From NCBI GenBank assembly GCA_009392515.1, contig VFGE01000020.1, positions 67,239 through 105,657 of the forward strand: 38,419 nucleotides of DNA. The letters are read 5' to 3'. Of this stretch, positions 11,179-28,459 are shown one piece after another (the stretch's first letter is position 1; each line of letters opens with the position of its first letter). This stretch comes from SAR202 cluster bacterium (GTDB taxonomy: Bacteria; Chloroflexota; Dehalococcoidia; Lucifugimonadales; UBA6952). The notes under the pieces are model-generated. The model did no database searches and was not told where the DNA came from. It saw only the letters and a program-made list of their open reading frames with translations. Position numbers and translations under genes: made by a program.

Positions 11179-12534
11179 ATGTCAGATAAACCAAACATAA
11201 TTATTTTTTCGACTGATGATCTAGGATATGGTGACCTAGGTTGTCTAGGATCTGAATATATCAAAACTCCCAATATTGATTCTTTAGGATCACAAGGAAT
11301 AATATTCAATAATTGGTATTCAAATAGTCCTGTATGTAGTCCATCAAGAGCATCATTATTAACCGGTAAATATCCTGGTAATACAGGAGTCCGATCTATT
11401 CTTAGAGGTCATAGAACTTCTCCGGGGCTTCCTACGACCAATTTAACTATAGCGTCTATCTTAAAAAATATCGGGTATGATACTTATATGGCTGGGAAAT
11501 GGCATCTTGGAGTATCAGAAGAAAATCGTCCGCACAATCACGGTTTTGACAAATGGTTCGGCCACTTAGCTGGATGTATAGATTATTATTCTCACATTTG
11601 GTACTACGCAAGTGGTAGAAATGAAAACAATCAACGTTTAAATCCAGTTCATGATCTTTGGGAAAATAATGTTGAAGTCTGGAAAAATGGAGAATATTTC
11701 ACTGAACTCATTACAAAAAAATCTATGGAATACCTTTATTCCTCGATACAGAAATCGAATCCTTTTTTTCTTTATATTCCTTACAATGCACCACATTACC
11801 CTATGCATGCACCACAAAAGTATGTAGACAGATATCCTGATTTACCTTGGGATAAACAAATTATGGCTGCAATGATTAGTGCTGTTGATGACTCTGTGGG
11901 AGAAATAATTACCTTTCTAAAAAAGAATAACTTATTTGAGAATACAATAATTATGTTTACTTCTGATAACGGACCTTCAAGAGAAACAAGAAACTGGCTT
12001 GATGGAACATTAGACCCCTATTATGGGGGTACATCTGGAAAACTAAAAGGTCATAAATTTAGTCTTTTTGATGGAGGTATCAAAGTGCCAAATATAATAA
12101 GTTTCCCTAATAAAATTTCTGGTAACTGGGTATCTGATGAATCATGTATAGCAATGGATTTTCTACCAACAATTCTTGATTTTTTAAATGTCGATCTAAA
12201 TCTATATAAACTTGACGGTATCAGTATAAAGTCACATTTAGAGAATAAAACTCCCGTTTTAAATCGTAGTCTATATTGGGAACAAGATAGTTTTATGAGT
12301 AGTCCTAGTAACCAAACAGCCATTTTGAAAGATAATTGGAAATTAGTACTGAATGGTAGATTAGTTGAATTTGAAAACCCTATAGCAGATATTTATTTAA
12401 GTAATTTAACAGATGACTTCTCTGAATCAAATAATTTGAAAGATGAATATCCTGAAATTGTAAAAGATCTAAAAACTGAAGCATTAAACTGGAGAAAAGC
12501 AATCGAAAATGTACCCAGATTTGATGGAAGGTAA
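11179..12534 (+). CDS. Cys-type arylsulfatase family protein
   Basis: Type I sulfatase that hydrolyses sulfate esters after conversion of its active-site Cys to formylglycine. The N-terminus carries the metal motif S-T-D-D-L-G-Y-G-D (residues 11-19), then the maturation motif C-S-P-S-R (53-57) and the second signature G-K-W-H-L-G (106-111); a T-S-D-N-G-P metal motif follows later. There is no signal peptide or lipobox, so the enzyme appears cytosolic, unlike most bacterial sulfatases. It begins five bases after the isocitrate dehydrogenase stop and is followed 13 bases later by its maturation enzyme, a clear functional pair. Organosulfate use for sulfur or carbon is likely; the substrate is unknown. 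Confidence 0.92.
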   Translation: MSDKPNIIIFSTDDLGYGDLGCLGSEYIKTPNIDSLGSQGIIFNNWYSNSPVCSPSRASLLTGKYPGNTGVRSILRGHRTSPGLPTTNLTIASILKNIGYDTYMAGKWHLGVSEENRPHNHGFDKWFGHLAGCIDYYSHIWYYASGRNENNQRLNPVHDLWENNVEVWKNGEYFTELITKKSMEYLYSSIQKSNPFFLYIPYNAPHYPMHAPQKYVDRYPDLPWDKQIMAAMISAVDDSVGEIITFLKKNNLFENTIIMFTSDNGPSRETRNWLDGTLDPYYGGTSGKLKGHKFSLFDGGIKVPNIISFPNKISGNWVSDESCIAMDFLPTILDFLNVDLNLYKLDGISIKSHLENKTPVLNRSLYWEQDSFMSSPSNQTAILKDNWKLVLNGRLVEFENPIADIYLSNLTDDFSESNNLKDEYPEIVKDLKTEALNWRKAIENVPRFDGR

Positions 12535-12547
12535 ATATTAAAATACT

Positions 12548-13480
12548 ATGAATTGCTGTACACCCGAAAATACAGATAAGAATACAAATTTTAATAATCA
12601 ACTTATTACTCCCAGGCAGAAAAGTTCAATTTTTAATAATATGGTTTCAATACCAGCTGGCTCGTTTATCATGGGGACAAATTCAAATATTGGATTTCCT
12701 CAAGATGGAGAAGGACCAGAAAAAAATATCTCCTTAGAAGATTTTAATATTGATATATATTCAGTAACAAATTCAGAATTTGAAAAATTTGTCACTGAAA
12801 CCAAATATAGAACTGAAGCTGAACAGTATGGATGGTCGTTTGTCTTTTATAAATTATTATCCAAAATAAATTTATCCAAAACTGAATACAAAGTAACCTC
12901 TACTCCATGGTGGTGTGTTGTTAAAAATGCATACTGGCGTAGGCCCGAAGGACCTGGGTCTAATATAAAAAATAGAGGAAATCACCCTGTAGTACACATA
13001 TCATGGAATGACGCCATGAACTATTGTACATGGGCAAATAAACGATTACCCACAGAAGCGGAATGGGAATATGCAGCAAAAGGGGGTTTAGAGAATTCTA
13101 TATATCCATGGGGGAATGAACTAACACCAAATAATGAACATCAGTGTAATATTTGGCAAGGAGTATTTCCTGAAGATAATTCGTTAGAGGATGGATATTT
13201 ATCTACAGCTCCCGTAAATTCATACAAGCCAAATGGATATGGTCTTTACAACATAGTAGGTAATGTATGGGAATGGACACAAGACTGGTTTAGTGCCTCA
13301 TATCCTAAAATTAGAGATAATAATAATCCTTTGGGTCCAAGCTCAGGAGAATCAAAAGTAATAAAAGGTGGGTCATATTTGTGTCACAAATCATATTGTA
13401 ATAGATATAGAATTGCTGCTAGATCAAATAATACCCCTAATAGTTCAACAAGCAATCTCGGATTTAGATGCGTAATCTAA
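12548..13480 (+). CDS. Formylglycine-generating enzyme (sulfatase-modifying factor)
   Basis: Copper-dependent oxidase that turns the Cys of the C-x-P-S-R sulfatase motif into C-alpha-formylglycine in the presence of oxygen. The FGE-sulfatase fold is clear: P-A-G-S-F-I-M-G-T, V-T-N-S-E-F-E-K-F-V, P-V-V-H-I-S-W-N-D-A, R-L-P-T-E-A-E-W-E-Y-A-A and G-N-V-W-E-W-T. Unlike most FGE-domain relatives, it retains the true catalytic pair Cys279 and Cys284 in the motif Y-L-C-H-K-S-Y-C-N-R-Y-R, as in actinobacterial and animal FGEs. The N-terminus begins M-N-C-C-T-P, also seen in that group. No signal peptide, matching the cytosolic sulfatase just upstream. The need for oxygen implies an aerobic organism. 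Confidence 0.94.
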   Translation: MNCCTPENTDKNTNFNNQLITPRQKSSIFNNMVSIPAGSFIMGTNSNIGFPQDGEGPEKNISLEDFNIDIYSVTNSEFEKFVTETKYRTEAEQYGWSFVFYKLLSKINLSKTEYKVTSTPWWCVVKNAYWRRPEGPGSNIKNRGNHPVVHISWNDAMNYCTWANKRLPTEAEWEYAAKGGLENSIYPWGNELTPNNEHQCNIWQGVFPEDNSLEDGYLSTAPVNSYKPNGYGLYNIVGNVWEWTQDWFSASYPKIRDNNNPLGPSSGESKVIKGGSYLCHKSYCNRYRIAARSNNTPNSSTSNLGFRCVI

Positions 13481-14191: not shown

Positions 14192-15076
14192 ATGGAAAAA
14201 GGATTTTATGAAATACTAGGCATTCAGGGATCATCTACTGACAAAGAAATTAAGCAAGCTTACCGACGTTTAGCTCGCCAATATCATCCTGATGTTAATA
14301 AAAATGACAAAAGTGCAGAAGAAAAATTCAAACAAATCAATGAAGCATATGAAGTCCTTTCTGACAAAAATAAAAGAAAACTTTATGATTCATATGGACC
14401 AAATTGGAAACAAGCTGAGGGTATAAATGGTGATGGATTTAACCCATTCACTCATAGCAATATGGGTTTTAATTTTGGAGGATTTCAAAATATTAACTTA
14501 GGAAATATGTTTGATGGATTCTTTGGAGGCCGAACACAAAACCGGCAATCCTCTTATAATCAAACAAAACCAAAACCTTCTGAAGTATCTGTAGAGGTAA
14601 GCCTTTTAGAAGCTTTTACTGGATGCCAAAGAATTGTAAAAACTCCTTCGAATGCAAAATCAGTTGAAGTTAAAATTCCACCGGGAGTTGATAATGGCTC
14701 AAAAATACATATCAATTTATCAGGAACAGATGTTTATCTGAACATAAAAGTTACTCCTCATCATCAATATCTCAGAAAAGGTAATAACATATATATCGAT
14801 TTAGCAGTCCCCTACTATGATGCAATAATCGGTTCTGAAAAAGAAGTTACAACTTTATCAAAAAAAGTGATGCTTAAAATCCCTCCAGAAAGTCAAAATG
14901 ACCAAATTTTCAAGCTACAAGGATTGGGTATGCCTATATTAGGAGAACAACAAAAATATGGAGATTGTTTTGTGCAATTAAAATCCATACTCCCCACAAG
15001 TTTATCCGAATCAGAAAAAGAAATATTTATATCCTTAAAATCTCTCAGAGAAAAACCTGGAGTTAATAATGAATGA
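14192..15076 (+). CDS. J-domain co-chaperone, CbpA-like (class II DnaJ)
   Basis: Stimulates DnaK ATPase and delivers substrates. The J domain fills residues 4-68 with the essential H-P-D at 32-34. A Gly/Phe-rich linker follows (about 80-120: G-F-N-F-G-G-F, M-F-D-G-F-F-G-G), then two C-terminal beta domains with K-I-P-P-G-V-D-N-G-S-K-I and V-M-L-K-I-P-P-E-S-Q. The four C-x-x-C-x-G-x-G repeats of the class I zinc finger are absent, so it is CbpA/class II. Its last eight bases overlap hspR. No other J protein is in the window, although dnaK and grpE are encoded 13 kb away. Confidence 0.9.
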   Translation: MEKGFYEILGIQGSSTDKEIKQAYRRLARQYHPDVNKNDKSAEEKFKQINEAYEVLSDKNKRKLYDSYGPNWKQAEGINGDGFNPFTHSNMGFNFGGFQNINLGNMFDGFFGGRTQNRQSSYNQTKPKPSEVSVEVSLLEAFTGCQRIVKTPSNAKSVEVKIPPGVDNGSKIHINLSGTDVYLNIKVTPHHQYLRKGNNIYIDLAVPYYDAIIGSEKEVTTLSKKVMLKIPPESQNDQIFKLQGLGMPILGEQQKYGDCFVQLKSILPTSLSESEKEIFISLKSLREKPGVNNE

Positions 15077-15422
15077 AAGAATAGATGAACCAATATTCGT
15101 AATAAGTGTTGCAGCTAAAATGATTGGAGTTCATGCACAAACCTTACGATACTATGAAAGAGCTGGACTGGTAGACCCGAGTCGTTCGGATGGAAATAGG
15201 AGATACTACTCCCAGAGAGATTTAGAAAGATTAAAACAAATTAAAACTCTAATCGATGATTTAGGTGTCAACCTTGCTGGGGCTGAAATAGCCTTAAAAC
15301 TTATGGATAAAATTGAAAAACTTGAAGATTCCATGTCACAAATGCGCTATCAATTAAATATGCTCGAATCTAGATCCAATCCACGAGCATTAGGTGATGG
15401 AACAAACTCAACACAATTCTAG
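15069..15422 (+). CDS. hspR: HspR-type MerR-family heat-shock repressor (first copy)
   Basis: Repressor of chaperone genes that binds HAIR operators, usually with DnaK as co-repressor. The 117-aa protein has the MerR winged helix: V-I-S-V-A-A-K-M-I-G-V-H-A-Q-T-L-R-Y-Y-E-R-A-G-L spread over residues 11-34, then the wing with N-R-R-Y-Y-S. The helix L-E-R-L-K-Q-I-K-T-L precedes a coiled coil (about 72-98) and a polar tail. It has no effector Cys residues. Overlap with dnaJ (8 bp) and the gene order before clpC show one operon. It probably controls this operon, but I could not find a consensus HAIR site in front of dnaJ. Confidence 0.88.
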   Translation: MNERIDEPIFVISVAAKMIGVHAQTLRYYERAGLVDPSRSDGNRRYYSQRDLERLKQIKTLIDDLGVNLAGAEIALKLMDKIEKLEDSMSQMRYQLNMLESRSNPRALGDGTNSTQF

Positions 15423-19948: not shown

Positions 19949-20383
19949 ATGATTACCACAAATAAAAAGATTTATTTTTCAGTTATAGTTTTAATTTTAA
20001 CTATTATATATTTTGTTATATTAGCTTTTGATAGTTCTACAGTGTTTTACTATAAGATTGATGAGTTATCAAAAGCAAATATTAAATCTACAGAAACTAT
20101 ACGAGTAGTAGGTACATTAGTTGATGATTCATTCGATCGTGAAAAAGATTCAACCACCGCTGTTTTTCGGATTCAAAGTGAAGACGGTTCTAATATGTTA
20201 ACTGCTCACTATGAAGGTGTGGTACCTGAGCTATTTTTCAATGAACAATCCGAGATAGTTCTTGAAGGAAACCTACTACAATACACTAATTTAAACGAAG
20301 CAATTTTTGATGCTGAGAACATTATTGTTAAATGTCCCTCAAAATACGAAGAGGCTGAAACAGAAAAAACTCAGGTTTTATAA
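19949..20383 (+). CDS. ccmE: Cytochrome c maturation haem chaperone CcmE, Cys type
   Basis: Membrane-anchored haem chaperone of cytochrome c maturation System I. One N-terminal membrane helix (about residues 8-27) precedes an OB-fold domain with I-R-V-V-G-T-L-V, A-H-Y-E-G-V-V-P-E-L-F and a C-terminal C-P-S-K-Y. In the classical protein the covalent haem ligand is His in H-x-x-x-Y; here Cys129 takes that place (C-x-x-x-Y, Tyr133). Such Cys-type CcmE proteins are known from archaea and sulfate reducers. A GAAGGA ribosome site precedes the ATG. It is separated from ccmABCD by about 4 kb; ccmF and ccmH are not in this window. Confidence 0.9.
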   Translation: MITTNKKIYFSVIVLILTIIYFVILAFDSSTVFYYKIDELSKANIKSTETIRVVGTLVDDSFDREKDSTTAVFRIQSEDGSNMLTAHYEGVVPELFFNEQSEIVLEGNLLQYTNLNEAIFDAENIIVKCPSKYEEAETEKTQVL

Positions 20384-20404
20384 TTTTTAATAATTATTAA
20401 AAAT
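20383..20404. terminator. AT-only 22-bp palindrome between convergent ccmE and korB
   Basis: Arms ATTTTTAATAA (20383-20393) and TTATTAAAAAT (20394-20404) form a perfect symmetrical palindrome that touches both stop codons. It contains only A and T, so the RNA hairpin would be weak, but it has A and U runs in both directions and may serve as a modest bidirectional terminator. Confidence 0.35.
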
Positions 20405-21263
20405 CGTAATCTGAAAGCAATTGTGCTACATCACGAGATTTCACACTTTCTGTAATCCTTTTTGTTTCTGCCGTAAGAGAAGCACGAGTTTTATCTTCAT
20501 ATATTATTCCAACAGGAATCCCAGGAGAATTAATAAGCTCCTCGGCTGCTAATCTATCTGTTCTATCATATTCCTCAGGTATATCATAAATAAGACCAGG
20601 TACACCTTTTTTAGCATTTCCTTTAAGAATTTCATATGTATCATTATAGGTTGTGCATGGAGATTGAACATGGACTACTGCAAATCCAGGGTGTTCCATA
20701 CCTGCTTGTATTAATTTTGCTAAATCCCTAGGTTTACTAGAATAACCAGAAGCTATAAAACTAGCACCTATTGTCAAATAGTATTTTAATGGATGTATCT
20801 TATCTTCAATTTTACCGTAAGGTGTTGAAGTTGTTTTTACTCCATAATCTGTTGTTGGAGAACTCTGGCCTTTAGTTAACCCATATACGCCATTATCCAT
20901 TACTACAGAACAGATATCTAAATTTCTAGTTGCCTGGGGTGCTATATGTTCCATACCAATGCTTAGGAAATCTCCGTCACCTGCAACAGTTATTACATTA
21001 AGGTCAGGATTAGCCATTTTTACGCCAAAAGCAATTGGTAATGACCTACCATGAATACCGTGCAAACCATATGGTTGCGGATCTTCTAACAAATGAACTA
21101 AATTTCCTGAGCAGCCTATACCAGCCACTACAACAGTGTTTTCTATTATTTCTTCTGTCTCTTTAAGTCGATCATTTAGAGCAAACTCTACAGCTCTTCG
21201 TACACCGAAGTCGCCACACCCTGGACACCACGCAAAATCATATTCAGGATTTTTCTTACTCAA
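20397..21263 (-). CDS. korB: 2-oxoacid:ferredoxin oxidoreductase beta subunit
   Basis: Thiamine-diphosphate and [4Fe-4S]-binding subunit of an enzyme that interconverts a 2-oxoacid plus CoA and acyl-CoA plus CO2 with ferredoxin. Cluster Cys residues are at C-P-G-C-G (Cys13, Cys16), Cys51 (G-C-S-G-N) and a later S-P-C-T-T-Y. The TPP motif starts G-D-G-D (95-98). The 288-aa length fits the 2-oxoglutarate type. The start is TTG at 21263, inside the korA stop (TTGA overlap), with an AAGGCGGTGA stretch upstream. The 2-oxoglutarate substrate is inferred from similarity of pattern and the nearby isocitrate dehydrogenase. Confidence 0.9.
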   Translation of the reverse strand: MSKKNPEYDFAWCPGCGDFGVRRAVEFALNDRLKETEEIIENTVVVAGIGCSGNLVHLLEDPQPYGLHGIHGRSLPIAFGVKMANPDLNVITVAGDGDFLSIGMEHIAPQATRNLDICSVVMDNGVYGLTKGQSSPTTDYGVKTTSTPYGKIEDKIHPLKYYLTIGASFIASGYSSKPRDLAKLIQAGMEHPGFAVVHVQSPCTTYNDTYEILKGNAKKGVPGLIYDIPEEYDRTDRLAAEELINSPGIPVGIIYEDKTRASLTAETKRITESVKSRDVAQLLSDYDF

Positions 21264-22963
21264 TTTATCACCGCCTTATTCTCTTGATTTACTAAATCAT
21301 TAATATTTGAAACCAGATCACCAACCTTAAATGGTAATCCTGTATATTGTGTTATAGATTTTGCTTTAACTCCATGAGATCGCAAAATTGAAGAAAATTG
21401 ACCTTGGTAATTCAATTCTGGAACGATAACCAAATCTTTTGTTCGTAATTTCTCTAATAAATCTTCAGGAAGAGGATTAAGATACATCGTGTAAAGCCAC
21501 CCAATATCTAAACCTGATTCTTTTAACTGATTATATGCTTCACGTACTGAGCCTTTTGAACCGCCCCATGGCATCAAGACAATAGAGGAATTAGGGTTTT
21601 CTTCTTCATAATCGCCATTTCTTAGCAAATCTAATTTACTAAAACGTCGTTCTGTCATCTGTATATGTCTACTGGGTAAATGGGTAGTGTCACCCATTGC
21701 ATCGTGCTCACTTCCATTAGCTATATATGAACCAGGTTTGCCTGGAATAGGCATAGGTGATAATTCAAAACCATCATATCTCAAGTAACCATTGTTACCT
21801 TCATATACAATTCTATTTTCCACTTTGACTGATTCCAAATCAGGTTTTCTTATATTTTGAACTCTTTCAGCTAAAGACATTTCAGTTAATAATATAACTG
21901 GACCTTGATATCTTTCTGCCCAATTAAGTGACATGACTCCTGCTGTAAAGCATTCTTCAACATTCCCAGGTGCAATGACAGGTAAAGACACATCTCCATG
22001 AGCAGGATTTATTGCAGAAAATAAATCAGATTGTTCAGTTTTTGTAGGCAGTCCAGTAGCTGGGCCACCTCTTTGAACATCAACAACAACTAACGGTATT
22101 TCTGCCATCCATGCTAAGCCAAGACCTTCACTCATTAATGAAAATCCAGGACCAGCTGTAGCAGTCATTGATTTTTTCCCGGCATACCCCCCACCAAGAA
22201 TAGCATTTATTGATTCTATTTCTGAACTTGCTTGGTAAACAAATTTGCCATCTTGTACCAAATTTCTCTCCATATAGAGCAAAATTGTTGTAGCTGGTGA
22301 AATTGGATAACCAACATAAAAATTCAATCCAGCTTTTATTGCACCTAAAGAAATTGCATCATTACCCTTCATCATAGATTGTTTATAATCTGGTGGTGTC
22401 GGGGCATCTAATTCTCCTAGATTAAAGGGACTTTCAGAGGCTTTTTCTATACCAAAATCAATGGCTCTAAAGTTAGCATCAACAATTTCTTGTCCTCTCG
22501 ATAAATATCTTTTCTCGATAAATTCTTGTAAATATTTAACCGGCATATCAACTAAAGATGCTAAGGCACCCATCATTACCATATTAGCAGTTCTTGCATC
22601 TCCTGCTTCTTTGGCTAGATCATCGAAAGGCATACCAATGGCTTTTTCGTCACCTGATGGTGTAAATGAAGAATCGTATAAGATGATTCCATCAGATGCC
22701 ACCTCTCCTCTATGATTTTCATAAGCTTCTTCATTCAAAGCTACTAAAACATTTAATTCATCTCCTGGACTTAACACAGGTGAGGTCGAAATTCTTGCTT
22801 GAGTATAAGTTGGACCTCCCATAATTTGTGAAGGAAAAGTCGCAAAAGTAAGAGAATGATACCCAACCTCTGAAGCAATTCTTGCTAATGCTTCTGAAGC
22901 CGTTACTACTCCTTGACCACCTTCTCCTGCAAATCGAACAACAAAATCTTGTCTTTTAGACAT
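21260..22963 (-). CDS. korA: 2-oxoacid:ferredoxin oxidoreductase alpha subunit with fused gamma domain
   Basis: Partner of korB. The first 185 residues are the gamma (CoA-linked) domain with G-E-G-G-Q-G-V at 13-19; the pyrimidine-binding alpha domain begins near 198 (M-K-G-N-D-A-I-S-L-G-A) and has G-Y-P-I-S-P-A-T-T at 218-226. This two-subunit fused architecture occurs in actinobacteria, archaea and Chloroflexota. The open frame reaches 23065, but I place the start at 22963: GGGGAG lies four bases upstream and the conserved family sequence begins there, whereas the extra 34 residues are basic and unrelated. Together with korB it probably forms the oxidative (or reversible) 2-oxoglutarate step. 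Confidence 0.92.
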   Translation of the reverse strand: MSKRQDFVVRFAGEGGQGVVTASEALARIASEVGYHSLTFATFPSQIMGGPTYTQARISTSPVLSPGDELNVLVALNEEAYENHRGEVASDGIILYDSSFTPSGDEKAIGMPFDDLAKEAGDARTANMVMMGALASLVDMPVKYLQEFIEKRYLSRGQEIVDANFRAIDFGIEKASESPFNLGELDAPTPPDYKQSMMKGNDAISLGAIKAGLNFYVGYPISPATTILLYMERNLVQDGKFVYQASSEIESINAILGGGYAGKKSMTATAGPGFSLMSEGLGLAWMAEIPLVVVDVQRGGPATGLPTKTEQSDLFSAINPAHGDVSLPVIAPGNVEECFTAGVMSLNWAERYQGPVILLTEMSLAERVQNIRKPDLESVKVENRIVYEGNNGYLRYDGFELSPMPIPGKPGSYIANGSEHDAMGDTTHLPSRHIQMTERRFSKLDLLRNGDYEEENPNSSIVLMPWGGSKGSVREAYNQLKESGLDIGWLYTMYLNPLPEDLLEKLRTKDLVIVPELNYQGQFSSILRSHGVKAKSITQYTGLPFKVGDLVSNINDLVNQENKAVIN

Positions 22964-23069
22964 GTATCTCCCCATAGGAACACGTTGTAATTTATTAAAT
23001 AGTCTTATAATTAGCTTTAATTTTCTAGGACAAAATGGACTTATCTGAGCTACTATATTGACCATAAAA

Positions 23070-23099
23070 ACTTTAGCACTGTAATCTATTTACTGTCAA
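23070..23099 (-). promoter_or_regulatory. korAB promoter
   Basis: On the minus strand TTGACA (23099-23094) and TAAAGT (23075-23070) are separated by 18 bases. The expected start near 23063 leaves a leader of about 100 bases before the chosen korA ATG at 22963 and falls within the upstream ATG at 23065, so that upstream ATG would not be on the transcript. Confidence 0.55.
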
Positions 23100-23147
23100 T
23101 ATGAGATTGATTAAAACACATATATAAATTGGTATTTTTTTCTATTT

Positions 23148-24344
23148 ATGAAAAATTTAAAATCTGAATTAATATCTAGAATTAAAGAACATGGTCCAAT
23201 AACATTTGAAAATTATATGGATCTTTGTCTCTATTGGCCAAAAGGCGGGTTTTATACGGGAAATGACATCATTATTCATGATGACTATTACACTTCGCCT
23301 ATGGCACATCCCGCATTTGGAGCCCTACTATCCTTATATTTAGAATCTCTATGGAAAAGTAGGCAATTTAACAACAAATTATTCATAATGGAAATTGGAG
23401 CAGGAAATTACCAATTAGCAAACGATATTACAAACTATTCAAAAAATTTATCAACTGATTTTTACAATTCAATAGATTACATCACAATAGACATTAGAAA
23501 ACCCCAAAAACCTAATAACAATTTCAGTCCAATTATTAGTAACACCATACCTTTCAATAAATTCACGGGTATTATCATCCTCAACGAGGTTTTTGATGCT
23601 TTCCCATTCCACCGCATCATAAAGATTAATAATCAAATAAAAGAAATATATGTAGATTATAAAGACGGGGATTTTTTTGAAACATATGGACCTGTTTCTT
23701 CAAATAAGATTTTTGAATTTCTTCAAGAGCACAGTATTTCACTAGACGAAAATCAAATTAATGAAATATCTTTAAAAAGCACTGAATATCTAAAAAACTT
23801 ATCCTCTATTTTGGATACTGGAGTTATTGTAAATATCGATTATGGAGATACATCAGAAAATTTACTGTCTAAATTTAAAAAAGGGTCCCTTTCTTGTTAT
23901 TTCGAACACACCATGTCACAAAACCCTTTTTTAAGTCCTGGTAAACAAGACATAACCTGCCATGTCAATTTTTCAGCATTGATAAGCGAAGCTACACAAA
24001 ACAATTTAGAATCAAGTAGTTTAATATCACAGCGAGAATTTTTATACCAACAAGGTTTTGAGTACTTATTAAGTAAATTGAGAAACTTATCTCTTAATCA
24101 ACATGAAATCAATTCAAACAGGATGGGTATGTTAAGTCTTGTTGACCCAAATGGGTTAGGTAACTTTAAAACACTAATACATTCAAAAAATATAAAGCTT
24201 AGCAAGCTTAATTTTGAATCCCAACTAAAAGATTTAAAAGATAAATACCCCGTACCGCTTTTAGATGATCATCATATTAATTTATTCGGAGCTAAATACC
24301 CTGATCAAGCACAAAATTGGAATGATTTATTTAAAATTAAATAG
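23148..24344 (+). CDS. MidA/NDUFAF7-like SAM-dependent methyltransferase
   Basis: Member of the SAM-dependent methyltransferase family related to mitochondrial NDUFAF7, which methylates an arginine of a complex I subunit. The N-terminal family signature is seen at about 19-36 (T-F-E-N-Y-M-D-L-C-L-Y, then W-P-K-G-G-F-Y), followed by Y-Y-T-S-P at 47-51 and motif I, M-E-I-G-A-G-N-Y-Q-L (81-90). N-E-V-F-D-A-F-P lies further on, and I-D-Y-G-D in the later fold. At 398 aa it is full length. It is convergent with ccmD, overlapping by eight bases at the 3' ends. A role in respiratory complex assembly is an inference from the eukaryotic relative. Confidence 0.82.
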   Translation: MKNLKSELISRIKEHGPITFENYMDLCLYWPKGGFYTGNDIIIHDDYYTSPMAHPAFGALLSLYLESLWKSRQFNNKLFIMEIGAGNYQLANDITNYSKNLSTDFYNSIDYITIDIRKPQKPNNNFSPIISNTIPFNKFTGIIILNEVFDAFPFHRIIKINNQIKEIYVDYKDGDFFETYGPVSSNKIFEFLQEHSISLDENQINEISLKSTEYLKNLSSILDTGVIVNIDYGDTSENLLSKFKKGSLSCYFEHTMSQNPFLSPGKQDITCHVNFSALISEATQNNLESSSLISQREFLYQQGFEYLLSKLRNLSLNQHEINSNRMGMLSLVDPNGLGNFKTLIHSKNIKLSKLNFESQLKDLKDKYPVPLLDDHHINLFGAKYPDQAQNWNDLFKIK

Positions 24345-24456
24345 AGCTATCTTTATCCAATTCATCTTTAATATCTTCAATCTTTCTATTAAGAACAAAT
24401 AAATATGCAAAGTACACAACCCAAGTTATAGCAAAAACCGCAAATAAATAATTCAT
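24337..24456 (-). CDS. ccmD: CcmD-like small membrane protein, 39 aa
   Basis: The frame encodes 39 residues: one membrane helix at the N-terminus (Y-L-F-A-V-F-A-I-T-W-V-V-Y-F-A-Y-L) followed by a charged C-terminal helix (N-R-K-I-E-D-I-K-D-E-L-D-K-D). This is the topology and length of CcmD, the peptide that stabilises the CcmABC-CcmE haem-release complex. A GAGG ribosome site lies five bases before the ATG. It directly follows ccmC, completing ccmABCD. The last eight bases overlap the end of the convergent methyltransferase gene. The sequence family is weakly conserved, so position and topology are the main evidence. Confidence 0.8.
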   Translation of the reverse strand: MNYLFAVFAITWVVYFAYLFVLNRKIEDIKDELDKDSSI

Positions 24457-24474
24457 TTTAACCTCTAGTATTAG

Positions 24475-25134
24475 TTAATTTTTCAATTCTTCTAATATCC
24501 TTAATTGAAATCTTCTGACAAGTAAAAATACCCCAAGAACAGTAAAGGCAAAAGTTGAATATATGAGTATAAATCCCATAGAAGCTGTTAGGCCTGCATC
24601 TGATTCTTTTAAAGGACCAATTATCATTTCTGGATGAACAGTTCTCCACCACACTGATGCCATGTAAACTATGGGTACATTAATAAATGAAATAATACCC
24701 AAAACAGAGGCATATGTTGCGCCTTGCCTTATATTAGAAGAATAGGCTCGTAACATTAGATAACCAATATACATCAACCACATAATTAATGAAGTAGTAA
24801 GCTTAGGGTCCCAAGTCCACCATACCCCCCAAACAGGCTTAGCCCAAATAGCACCGCTAATAACCATAATAGTTGTTGTGATTACTCCAATTTCTCCTGC
24901 TGATTGACCAAAATAATCCCAACGAATATTTTTTGTTATTAAATACATTATTGAAGAAATAAAAACAAAAAAGAAAAACAGAAAACCCACCCAAGCATTT
25001 GGAACGTGAATATACAAAATCTTCTGAACATGCCCCATAATAACTTCTGTAGGCGCAAACAAAGTGATTAATGCAACATCAAATATAATTATTGCAGCGG
25101 TAATTATTAAAAAATAAATAGATTTAATTTTCAT
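24475..25134 (-). CDS. ccmC: Haem exporter membrane protein CcmC
   Basis: Six-helix membrane protein of the haem-handling superfamily that presents haem to CcmE. The external Trp-rich motif W-G-V-W-W-T-W-D-P-K-L-T is present. The two conserved His ligands appear in Y-I-H-V-P-N-A-W and in W-R-T-V-H-P-E-M. At 219 aa it has typical length. It lies 18 bp downstream of ccmB in the ccmABCD operon. Confidence 0.94.
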   Translation of the reverse strand: MKIKSIYFLIITAAIIIFDVALITLFAPTEVIMGHVQKILYIHVPNAWVGFLFFFFVFISSIMYLITKNIRWDYFGQSAGEIGVITTTIMVISGAIWAKPVWGVWWTWDPKLTTSLIMWLMYIGYLMLRAYSSNIRQGATYASVLGIISFINVPIVYMASVWWRTVHPEMIIGPLKESDAGLTASMGFILIYSTFAFTVLGVFLLVRRFQLRILEELKN

Positions 25135-25152
25135 GTGTATTCAAATATTAAA

Positions 25153-25830
25153 TTAATAATCTTTCATGACGTGTGTAAACAAAAACGAACATACTATAGT
25201 AAATATTATATCAATAACTGCCAATAATTGTATCCATTTATTATACTCAGCCCATGTTTCTCCTCTTAAAACCGAAGTTGTTACCTCAATTGCACCAAGT
25301 AGCATAGGAAATATTAAAGGGAATAATAATATTGGTAAAAGAGTTTCTCTAACTCCTGTATTTGAAGTCATTGACCCAATAATTGTGCCGATAACTGAAA
25401 TTCCTAGAGTTGTTAATACTGCAACTAAAATAATAGGAGTGTAAATAATATTTAAATTAAAAATGATAGTAAAAATAGGAAAAATTAATATTTCCAAAAC
25501 TATCATAAACAAGAAAAGAGTAGTAACTTTACCTAAAAATAAGATATCTCTCGAAATGGGAAGAAGTAATAATGATTCAAAATTACCACTATCCCTTTCT
25601 GTAGATAAAAATCGGTTAAGTCCTAAAACGGCTGTAAAAAAGATTGTAACCCATAAGATTCCTGGAAGAACACGAATATACGAATCATTTGCTACATCAA
25701 TGGATATATTAAAGATCACAACACATGTAAACGAAAAAATTGTAGTAAGAACAAGTAAATCTTTACGTTGCAATTCAGCTCTGATATCTTTTATTGCAAT
25801 ATACCATATGTATAAGATGTAATTTTTCAT
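25153..25830 (-). CDS. ccmB: Haem exporter ABC permease CcmB
   Basis: Membrane subunit of the CcmAB ABC transporter that drives release of haem-loaded CcmE. The 225-aa protein shows about six hydrophobic segments and the family stretch L-N-R-F-L-S-T-E-R-D-S-G-N-F-E-S-L-L-L-L, equivalent to the E-R-E-x-G-x-L-E motif of the family. Its ATG overlaps the ccmA stop (ATGA), so the two are translationally coupled. Confidence 0.9.
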   Translation of the reverse strand: MKNYILYIWYIAIKDIRAELQRKDLLVLTTIFSFTCVVIFNISIDVANDSYIRVLPGILWVTIFFTAVLGLNRFLSTERDSGNFESLLLLPISRDILFLGKVTTLFLFMIVLEILIFPIFTIIFNLNIIYTPIILVAVLTTLGISVIGTIIGSMTSNTGVRETLLPILLFPLIFPMLLGAIEVTTSVLRGETWAEYNKWIQLLAVIDIIFTIVCSFLFTHVMKDY

Positions 25831-26546
25831 AATACACTTTCATTTATTGATTCATATTTTTCTATTAAATTTGGGAACTGATCTTCATCTTGTACTTGAA
25901 ATTTCACTTTTCCTGACTGCAAAACACCAATGGTACTTGCTACAGATAATGCAAAATCAGAATTGTGTGTCGTCAAAAATACTGTCATATTTCCATTAAT
26001 GGCGTTTGGAAAAAAATTATCAGTTAAATTATTTATAGAACCAACATCTAATCCAGAATCTGGTTCATCCATAATCAATAAAGAAGGATTACTCATCATT
26101 GCTTTCATAATAGAAAGTCTCTTTTTTTCCCCATGAGATAATTTTGCTACTTTTTGGTTGATCAGACCTGAAAAGTTTAAAATTCTAGTAAGATATTCAA
26201 ATTGTGTGTCAAAATCAGTATTTTGATAAAATTTACTGAAAAATTTTAAATTTTGATATCCAGTTAAATCACCATAAAGTAAAGAGTTGTGTCCTACATA
26301 TCCAATAGTTTCGCGAATTTTTTCGGGATCATTAGATGAATTATATCCATTTATAATAACTTCTCCTTCATCTGGAGAATACAAAGTTGTTAATAATTTA
26401 ACTAAAGTTGTCTTACCTGAGCCGTTGGATCCTAAAAGCACATATCTTTCGGACATTTTTATTGTTAGAGAACAAGCCTTTAAAATAGGATTAGAACCAA
26501 ATGATTTACTTACATTGTTAATTTCGATCGAATTTTTCTCTATCAA
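25827..26546 (-). CDS. ccmA: Haem exporter ABC ATP-binding protein CcmA
   Basis: ATPase of the CcmAB complex. Walker A is G-S-N-G-S-G-K-T-T, the signature is L-S-H-G-E-K-K-R (Lys where Gln is usual), Walker B ends L-L-I-M-D-E-P-D-S-G-L-D, and the switch His lies in T-T-H. Length 239 aa. The start codon is TTG at 26546, as no ATG precedes the first beta strand. First gene of the minus-strand ccmABCD operon, divergent from the molybdoenzyme gene. By sequence alone it could be another drug/haem-type ABC ATPase; the neighbours decide the name. Confidence 0.85.
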   Translation of the reverse strand: MIEKNSIEINNVSKSFGSNPILKACSLTIKMSERYVLLGSNGSGKTTLVKLLTTLYSPDEGEVIINGYNSSNDPEKIRETIGYVGHNSLLYGDLTGYQNLKFFSKFYQNTDFDTQFEYLTRILNFSGLINQKVAKLSHGEKKRLSIMKAMMSNPSLLIMDEPDSGLDVGSINNLTDNFFPNAINGNMTVFLTTHNSDFALSVASTIGVLQSGKVKFQVQDEDQFPNLIEKYESINESVL

Positions 26547-27958: not shown

Positions 27959-28451
27959 ATGACAAATTCTATCAAAAATAATTCTAAAATTGCTCGTCTT
28001 GATTTACGTGATATAAATAAAGCAGAAACACGTAGAGTTAAAAAAAAGCTATCCATAAAAAACATTAATCCTAACGAGATACACGACACAGAAGGTGTTT
28101 ATATAATCAGTGTCGCTGCAAAAATTTTAGCTATGCATCCACAAACATTGCGCAAATATGAACGAGCAGGTCTTATTTCACCATCAAGAACGATAGGAAT
28201 GCTAAGATTATATTCTATCCAGGATATTAATAAAATTAGATTAATAAAATACCTAGTGGATGATATTGGAATGAATTTATCTGGAGTAGAATTTATTTTA
28301 CATACGCTTGAAGAATTAGAAAAAGCTAAAGGCTATATCAATAATATTGTTGGATCTTTTCACAAAACTGAATTTGAATCTCATCTTAAACAAATATACA
28401 CTTTGATAAATAAGCCGCTTATTAACATCAAATACAAAACTGGTAAGTATT

Positions 28452-28459
<8 letters not shown>
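27959..28459 (+). CDS. HspR-type MerR-family repressor (second copy, extended)
   Basis: Second HspR-like regulator in the window, 166 aa against 117 for the first. The MerR winged helix (I-I-S-V-A-A-K-I-L-A-M-H-P-Q-T-L-R-K-Y-E spread over about 49-68, then R-A-G-L-I-S-P-S) is close to that of the first copy. It is preceded by a 45-residue basic extension and followed by a longer C-terminal tail. It heads the grpE-dnaK operon with an eight-base overlap into grpE, and a HAIR-like site lies in the promoter. The basic extension could add DNA contacts or be a start artefact; a later ATG is available only inside the domain, so I keep the full frame. Confidence 0.82.

Follow-up and report, generated by a model that had tools for sequence, protein, structure and literature searches.

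We analysed a stretch of 38,419 nucleotides (the window; positions 67,239 to 105,657 of contig VFGE01000020.1, assembly GCA_009392515.1, SAR202 cluster bacterium), in which genes of the cytochrome c maturation (Ccm) apparatus called System I lie between positions 19949 and 26546. The gene ccmE (19949..20383, plus strand) is an open reading frame (ORF) with an ATG start encoding 144 amino acids (aa), with an N-terminal membrane anchor, judged by eye from the sequence, followed by the CcmE domain. This domain is an OB fold in solved relatives. The protein is a member of Pfam family PF03100 (E 9.5e-19, 68 bits against a cut-off of 24.6). It does not carry the haem-binding histidine of classical System I, and the position of the His motif is occupied by Cys129-Pro-Ser-Lys-Tyr133, a C-x-x-x-Y motif kept in relatives and showing the replacement of His by Cys that marks System I*. 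Its best solved relative is 2KCT, the CcmE of Desulfovibrio vulgaris (E 1.4e-4), which is also Cys-type (PMC3884852).

The genes ccmABCD are located together on the minus strand. The smallest, ccmD (24337..24456, 39 aa), matches NCBIfam TIGR04391 (CcmD_alt_fam) at E 1.4e-8, with 34.5 bits against a cut-off of 24; its counterparts in relatives sit between ccmC and ccmE, and the one in a metagenome-assembled genome (MAG) of the same genus (L005) is 87% identical over 38 aa. Next to it are ccmC (24475..25134, 219 aa; PF01578, E 1.8e-30; NCBIfam ccmC, E 2.5e-39, under its cut-off), which carries the WWD-type stretch VWGVWWTWDPKLTT, and ccmB (25153..25830, 225 aa; PF03379, E 4.1e-31; NCBIfam ccmB, E 9.5e-14, under its cut-off). 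The last gene, ccmA (25827..26546, 239 aa, TTG start as listed), encodes an ABC ATPase (PF00005, E 2.1e-30); since its match to NCBIfam ccmA (E 7.8e-33) is under the cut-off and not top-ranked, we identify it from its position among the other ccm genes of the operon.

Between ccmE and ccmD lie genes that are not part of the Ccm system, namely the beta and alpha/gamma genes of a 2-oxoacid:ferredoxin oxidoreductase (20397..23065, minus strand, convergent with ccmE; PF02775, PF01855, PF01558) and a Methyltransf_28 family gene (23148..24344, plus strand; PF02636, E 1.6e-41). Because these genes separate ccmE from ccmABCD, the window holds two ccm pieces rather than one operon. An earlier note, made from the letters of this DNA, had placed Cys129 and Tyr133 in a C-P-S-K-Y motif at exactly the positions given here, and the compact ccmABCD with a 39-aa ccmD that it described agrees with the Pfam and TIGR04391 matches and with the operon position. 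The note was thus right that ccmE and ccmABCD share this stretch, but not as a single ccm operon.

The remaining System I genes

The assembly containing the window comprises 1.55 Mb in 62 contigs (98.45% complete, 2.84% contaminated). Its only CcmF (E 1.2e-50) and its only CcmH (E 4.2e-28) are encoded side by side on another contig (C46). Residues 2-641 of this CcmF, nearly its full length, align with the solved CcmF 6ZMQ (E 8.4e-89), and the stretch WGGYWAWDP is common to both, while CcmH contains LMCPVCPAETLDQSQ, with an intact CxxC pair (CPVC). Behind ccmF follow a 128-aa ORF (L004 9482-9868) with a zinc-ribbon-like end, as judged by eye, and no CcmI match; a 392-aa ORF that matched no Pfam family; and a CcmG/ResA-like thioredoxin. 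In a relative, the ORF at the place of the 128-aa one (L168) has an N-terminus that appears CcmI-like by eye. A DsbD_TM (DsbD/CcdA-type) protein is encoded on contig C47 (E 9.8e-9, above the cut-off).

On C46, ccmH and ccmF are preceded by a gene set that we name alternative complex III from our reading of its gene content, and by genes for CxxCH proteins, one with five such motifs directly before the first complex III-type gene and one with a single motif before ccmH. Another CxxCH protein (CAACH) is encoded beside COX1, the haem-copper oxidase subunit I (E 2.8e-161). These three CxxCH proteins are likely substrates of the Ccm system. The COX1 match, together with the alternative complex III-type genes, supports an aerobic life, in line with what the earlier note had deduced from a putative oxygen-requiring enzyme. 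The same note had asked whether a CcmH is present and had proposed a search for ccmF, ccmG and multihaem cytochromes. The question is answered by the CcmH (CPVC) beside CcmF; the genome also encodes the CcmG-like thioredoxin and the five-CxxCH protein.

All genes of the classical System I set, i.e., ccmABCD, ccmF, ccmG and ccmH, are therefore present, distributed over three places in the genome, with ccmA and ccmG assigned by family and context, as their matches score below the strict NCBIfam cut-offs. The absence of CcmH, which was the original trait of System I* in 2006, does not hold here, as CcmH is encoded beside ccmF. We conclude that the organism has an aerobic System I that is nearly complete and whose CcmE is of the Cys type.

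Distribution in the order and in the Chloroflexota

We examined 40 genomes of the order, consisting of the organism's own, one of the same genus and 38 others. CcmE was found in 37 of them, each with a Cys-type copy (36 CxxxY and one CxxxF), and this conservation in 37/37 shows that Cys129 is neither a chance substitution nor a sequencing error; it also answers the doubt, raised in the earlier note, that the Cys might not be conserved in relatives. The Cys-type CcmE is hence the usual form among the sampled relatives. CcmH was detected in 36/40 genomes, including one match with an in-frame stop that was counted as present (G029), and CcmE and CcmH occur together in 34 of the 37 CcmE-bearing genomes. 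Two genomes (G010 and G039) have CcmH and CcmF without a CcmE match, and one (G013) matched none of CcmE, CcmH and CcmF. A search for related loci in named genomes gave a single one, from the Dehalococcoidia MAG ALOHA_A2.5_17 (L005), with a CcmE 92% identical to that of the window; its DNA equals that of the other genome of the genus (G001) over the 15,001 bases compared. One relative (G017) holds a His-type CcmE (HDENY; L006/L158, G017:C2) besides a Cys-type copy.

To compare gene order, we sought matches to the window's own proteins around 37 ccmE genes in 35 further genomes of the order, at loci that mostly span only about 1.5 kb on each side. A ccmC match lies upstream of ccmE on the same strand in 23/37 loci, a ccmD match lies upstream in 19/37, with one more overlapping, and in 10/37 the downstream neighbour of ccmE is the oxidoreductase beta gene, in convergent orientation. 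Missing ccmC and ccmD matches mean little because of the short flanks and the use of the window's proteins as queries. The MAG of the same genus (L005) has the gene order of the window, and in L034, which is placed close to this lineage in the CcmE tree, ccmE has ccmC upstream and is followed by ccmB and ccmA on the opposite strand. The simplest reading is that the ancestral order was ccmABCDE and that ccmABCD was relocated in this genus.

In a draw of 201 genomes from the phylum, CcmE was present in 140 and CcmH in 109. The motif was read in 76 of the 138 CcmE-bearing genomes outside the order, a non-random set made up of the 30 best-scoring ones and, picked by hand, one or more from most of the remaining families. 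The four genomes with two motif forms enter the counts only once each. A Cys-type CcmE occurs in 61 of these 76, 47 of them with CcmH, so that the Cys-type is the commoner one wherever the motif was read in Chloroflexota genomes, mostly accompanied by CcmH. The 62 genomes with a CcmH match, which contains an in-frame stop in G208 and is weak in G230 (E 2.8e-7), divide into 47 Cys-type (20 CxxxY, 26 CxxxF, 1 CxxxL) and 15 His-type (7 HxxxY, 8 HxxxF). The 14 genomes without a CcmH match are all Cys-type (10 CxxxY, 3 CxxxF, 1 CxxxQ) and all have a CcmF match. Two single-contig genomes of the same class (G113 and G144; L155, L156) have a Cys-type CcmE (CASKY) and CcmF with no CcmH match, and provide a natural CcmH-less comparison near this lineage. 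A requirement of His-type CcmE for CcmH was considered, as all 15 His-type genomes read outside the order have a CcmH match and all 14 CcmH-less ones are Cys-type. This association is not taken as a test because the genomes are related and non-randomly chosen, and some absences are possibly gaps (e.g., G194, with 560 contigs).

In many Chloroflexota CcmE proteins (L073-L154, e.g., L083, L092, L114 and L127) the motif Tyr is replaced by Phe, both in Cys-type (CPSKF) and in His-type (HGPEF) forms, so that the Tyr presumed to bind the iron is frequently absent. Furthermore, two genomes of one family (f54) carry a tandem pair of ccmE genes (L074 1498-2403, minus strand; L075 9-950, plus strand), in which one copy has CPSKY and the other CPHSY or CPHRY, with both Cys and His in the motif.

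An initial CcmE tree of 121 rows, in which the motif was retained, required two changes between Cys and His and placed HxxxF beside CxxxF with weak support. For a second tree, the motif and everything after it were removed and 116 rows were kept, among them the long-branched L006; five rows were left out, namely three on long branches (L042, L135 and L105) and the two CPH[SR]Y copies (L074 and L075). The free version of this tree had four Cys/His changes. Holding the 17 His rows together scored better by 33.8 log units (p-AU 0.879), and since this constrained tree was thus not rejected, we do not claim independent or repeated switching between Cys and His within the Chloroflexota.

Comparison with known systems

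As Stevens et al. 2011 (PMC3601427) describe, System I*, defined by a CcmE with Cys in place of His, was at first associated with a lack of CcmH, in archaea and Desulfovibrio. The same paper lists Chloroflexi, gives CPSKY as the majority motif, and states that about one third of the bacteria with Cys-type CcmE have CcmH, and does not regard the absence of CcmH as characteristic. The earlier note had described the Cys variant as one of archaea and some anaerobes in which the rest of System I differs, and this description does not agree with that account. The view that a Cys-type CcmE points to a modified System I is no longer current. A 2025 review describes the conserved residue of CcmE as a histidine or cysteine (PMC12285233). 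In the open-access literature searched for SAR202 and Dehalococcoidia, we found no paper on the Ccm system of this order. In the same literature, Stevens et al. 2011 was the only paper retrieved for the CPSKY motif and for Cys-type CcmE with CcmH in Chloroflexi.

The system described here resembles System I* of Desulfovibrio, Chloroflexi, some Firmicutes and archaea in combining a CPSKY CcmE with CcmABCD and CcmF (PMC3601427). It differs from that of Desulfovibrio, reported without CcmH and CcmG, by having CcmH and a CcmG-like protein, and from the archaeal one, in which a 2015 survey found CcmH in a single archaeon, Ferroglobus placidus (PMC4429474), by having CcmH. The co-occurrence of CcmH with Cys-type CcmE is also commoner in this order (34/37) than the one third stated in 2011 (PMC3601427). 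The CcmABCEF system of Methanosarcina acetivorans shares the CXXXY CcmE, but lacks CcmD and CcmH and has a CcmF split in two (PMC9084895). For every protein of the classical System I of Escherichia coli (CcmABCDEFGH) we identified a counterpart. The differences are that CcmE has Cys instead of His, that the ccm genes are in three places, and that a CcmI domain was not recognised behind ccmF.

A plasmid search returned 27 records, all below 60% identity and 19 of them from Rhizobium, and the motif was read in two, being HDETY in Rhizobium and CPSKY in Cytobacillus. The Cytobacillus firmus plasmid p1 (NZ_CP107028.1; L188 8394-8891) is similar to the present case in having a CPSKY CcmE beside ccmF and an annotated ccmH. 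However, the two Cys of this CcmH have eight residues between them (GCTDSMTADYC) instead of forming CxxC, and, unlike in the window, a single cluster unites ccmE, ccmF and ccmH with ccmB and with genes for an ABC ATPase and a cytochrome c biogenesis protein.

Proposed mechanism and alternative explanations

We are confident that the window encodes the haem-delivery half of a System I* Ccm apparatus in an aerobic, marine member of the Dehalococcoidia, a class of the Chloroflexota, operating as follows. By homology, CcmA and CcmB would power haem loading, and CcmC with CcmD would load haem onto CcmE at the outer face of the membrane. By analogy with the D. desulfuricans, M. acetivorans and E. 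coli proteins, Cys129, in place of the E. coli His, would most likely form a thioether with a haem vinyl group, with Tyr133 as the probable iron ligand. Holo-CcmE would then pass the haem to the CcmF-CcmH synthase encoded on the other contig, while the CcmG-like thioredoxin and the DsbD/CcdA-type protein may maintain the apocytochrome CxxCH thiols in the reduced state. The products would include the five-CxxCH and one-CxxCH proteins of the alternative complex III-type genes and the CxxCH protein beside cytochrome oxidase subunit I.

Several points weigh against this interpretation. The thioredoxin, with the motif SWCQQC, matches NCBIfam DsbE/CcmG under the cut-off, and CcmI was not recognised among the ORFs behind ccmF, which were the only ones scanned, with no genome-wide CcmI search. 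The main uncertainty is whether the predicted attachment of haem to Cys129 is covalent in vivo. According to a 2013 review, the CcmE of D. vulgaris binds ferric haem non-covalently, via C127, which contrasts with the report on D. desulfuricans (PMC3884852), and 2KCT, the best solved match of the window's CcmE, is this same D. vulgaris protein. The thiolate of Cys129 might accordingly only coordinate the iron, making CcmE a non-covalent haem shuttle. We regard this as unlikely, because expression of a Desulfovibrio Ccm operon in E. coli gave a Cys-type CcmE with covalently bound haem (PMC3601427), and because the haem staining of CcmE is lost in the C120A mutant of M. acetivorans, where the Cys is needed for haem attachment (PMC9084895). 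His and Cys were not interchangeable in the CcmE cases tried (PMC9084895).

The ccm genes are split over two contigs of a fragmented assembly, so that their membership of one genome rests on binning. The contig with ccmH and ccmF could in principle be a contaminant, in an organism with a CcmH-less System I* like that of most archaea and Desulfovibrio. In G001, the only genome of the genus searched, CcmE was present and neither CcmH nor CcmF was found, and G113 and G144 show the CcmH-less combination on single contigs. Such contamination is nonetheless very improbable given the presence of CcmH in nearly all CcmE-bearing genomes of the order, and the three exceptions are best read as gaps, G001 and G027 because CcmF is missing too, and G035 because its contig breaks off within the CcmF frame, towards the expected place of ccmH. 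We consider it hardly credible that a second, His-type CcmE elsewhere in the genome does the main work, a possibility raised by the earlier note and for which G017, with its two types, offers a precedent. A search to E 0.001 in this 98.45%-complete assembly gave a single CcmE match, and the His-type copy of G017, on a long branch, may be acquired or a contaminant.

Other genes in the window

Elsewhere in the window, a sulfatase (motif CSPSR) adjoins a formylglycine-generating-enzyme-like protein with SYLCHKSYCNRYR, by eye of the oxygen-dependent type (11179-13480). A protein that by eye resembles zinc/manganese substrate-binding proteins (892-2031) has a long His/Asp/Glu-rich repeat, DKDEHDKDEHGKDEHEGHGHDE, which is probably metal-binding. 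Two regulators (15069-15422 and 27959-28459), MerR/HspR-like by eye, are located beside DnaJ/ClpB-like and GrpE/DnaK-like genes, respectively.

Implications

These results do not change an established view, since earlier publications already cover the Cys variant, its occurrence in Chloroflexi and the fact that it partly overlaps with CcmH. What is new is the breadth, with Cys-type CcmE and CcmH together nearly throughout the sampled order, and Phe in place of Tyr widespread in other Chloroflexota. Both halves of System I occur in this lineage, and Cys-type CcmE is often accompanied by CcmH, contrary to the first picture of 2006. The natural variants (CxxxY, CxxxF, HxxxY and HxxxF, and Cys forms with and without CcmH) could be used to test the release of haem from CcmE. 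We tentatively hypothesize, at somewhat less than even confidence, that in the Chloroflexota the Cys-type CcmE is the common form working with a CcmF-CcmH synthase, with Tyr replaced by Phe in many of the families read (CPSKF, HxxxF). If these forms are functional, the chemistry of the carrier would not depend on the His, on the Tyr or on a lack of CcmH, and the phylum may represent a natural mutant series for the hand-over of haem from CcmE to CcmF.

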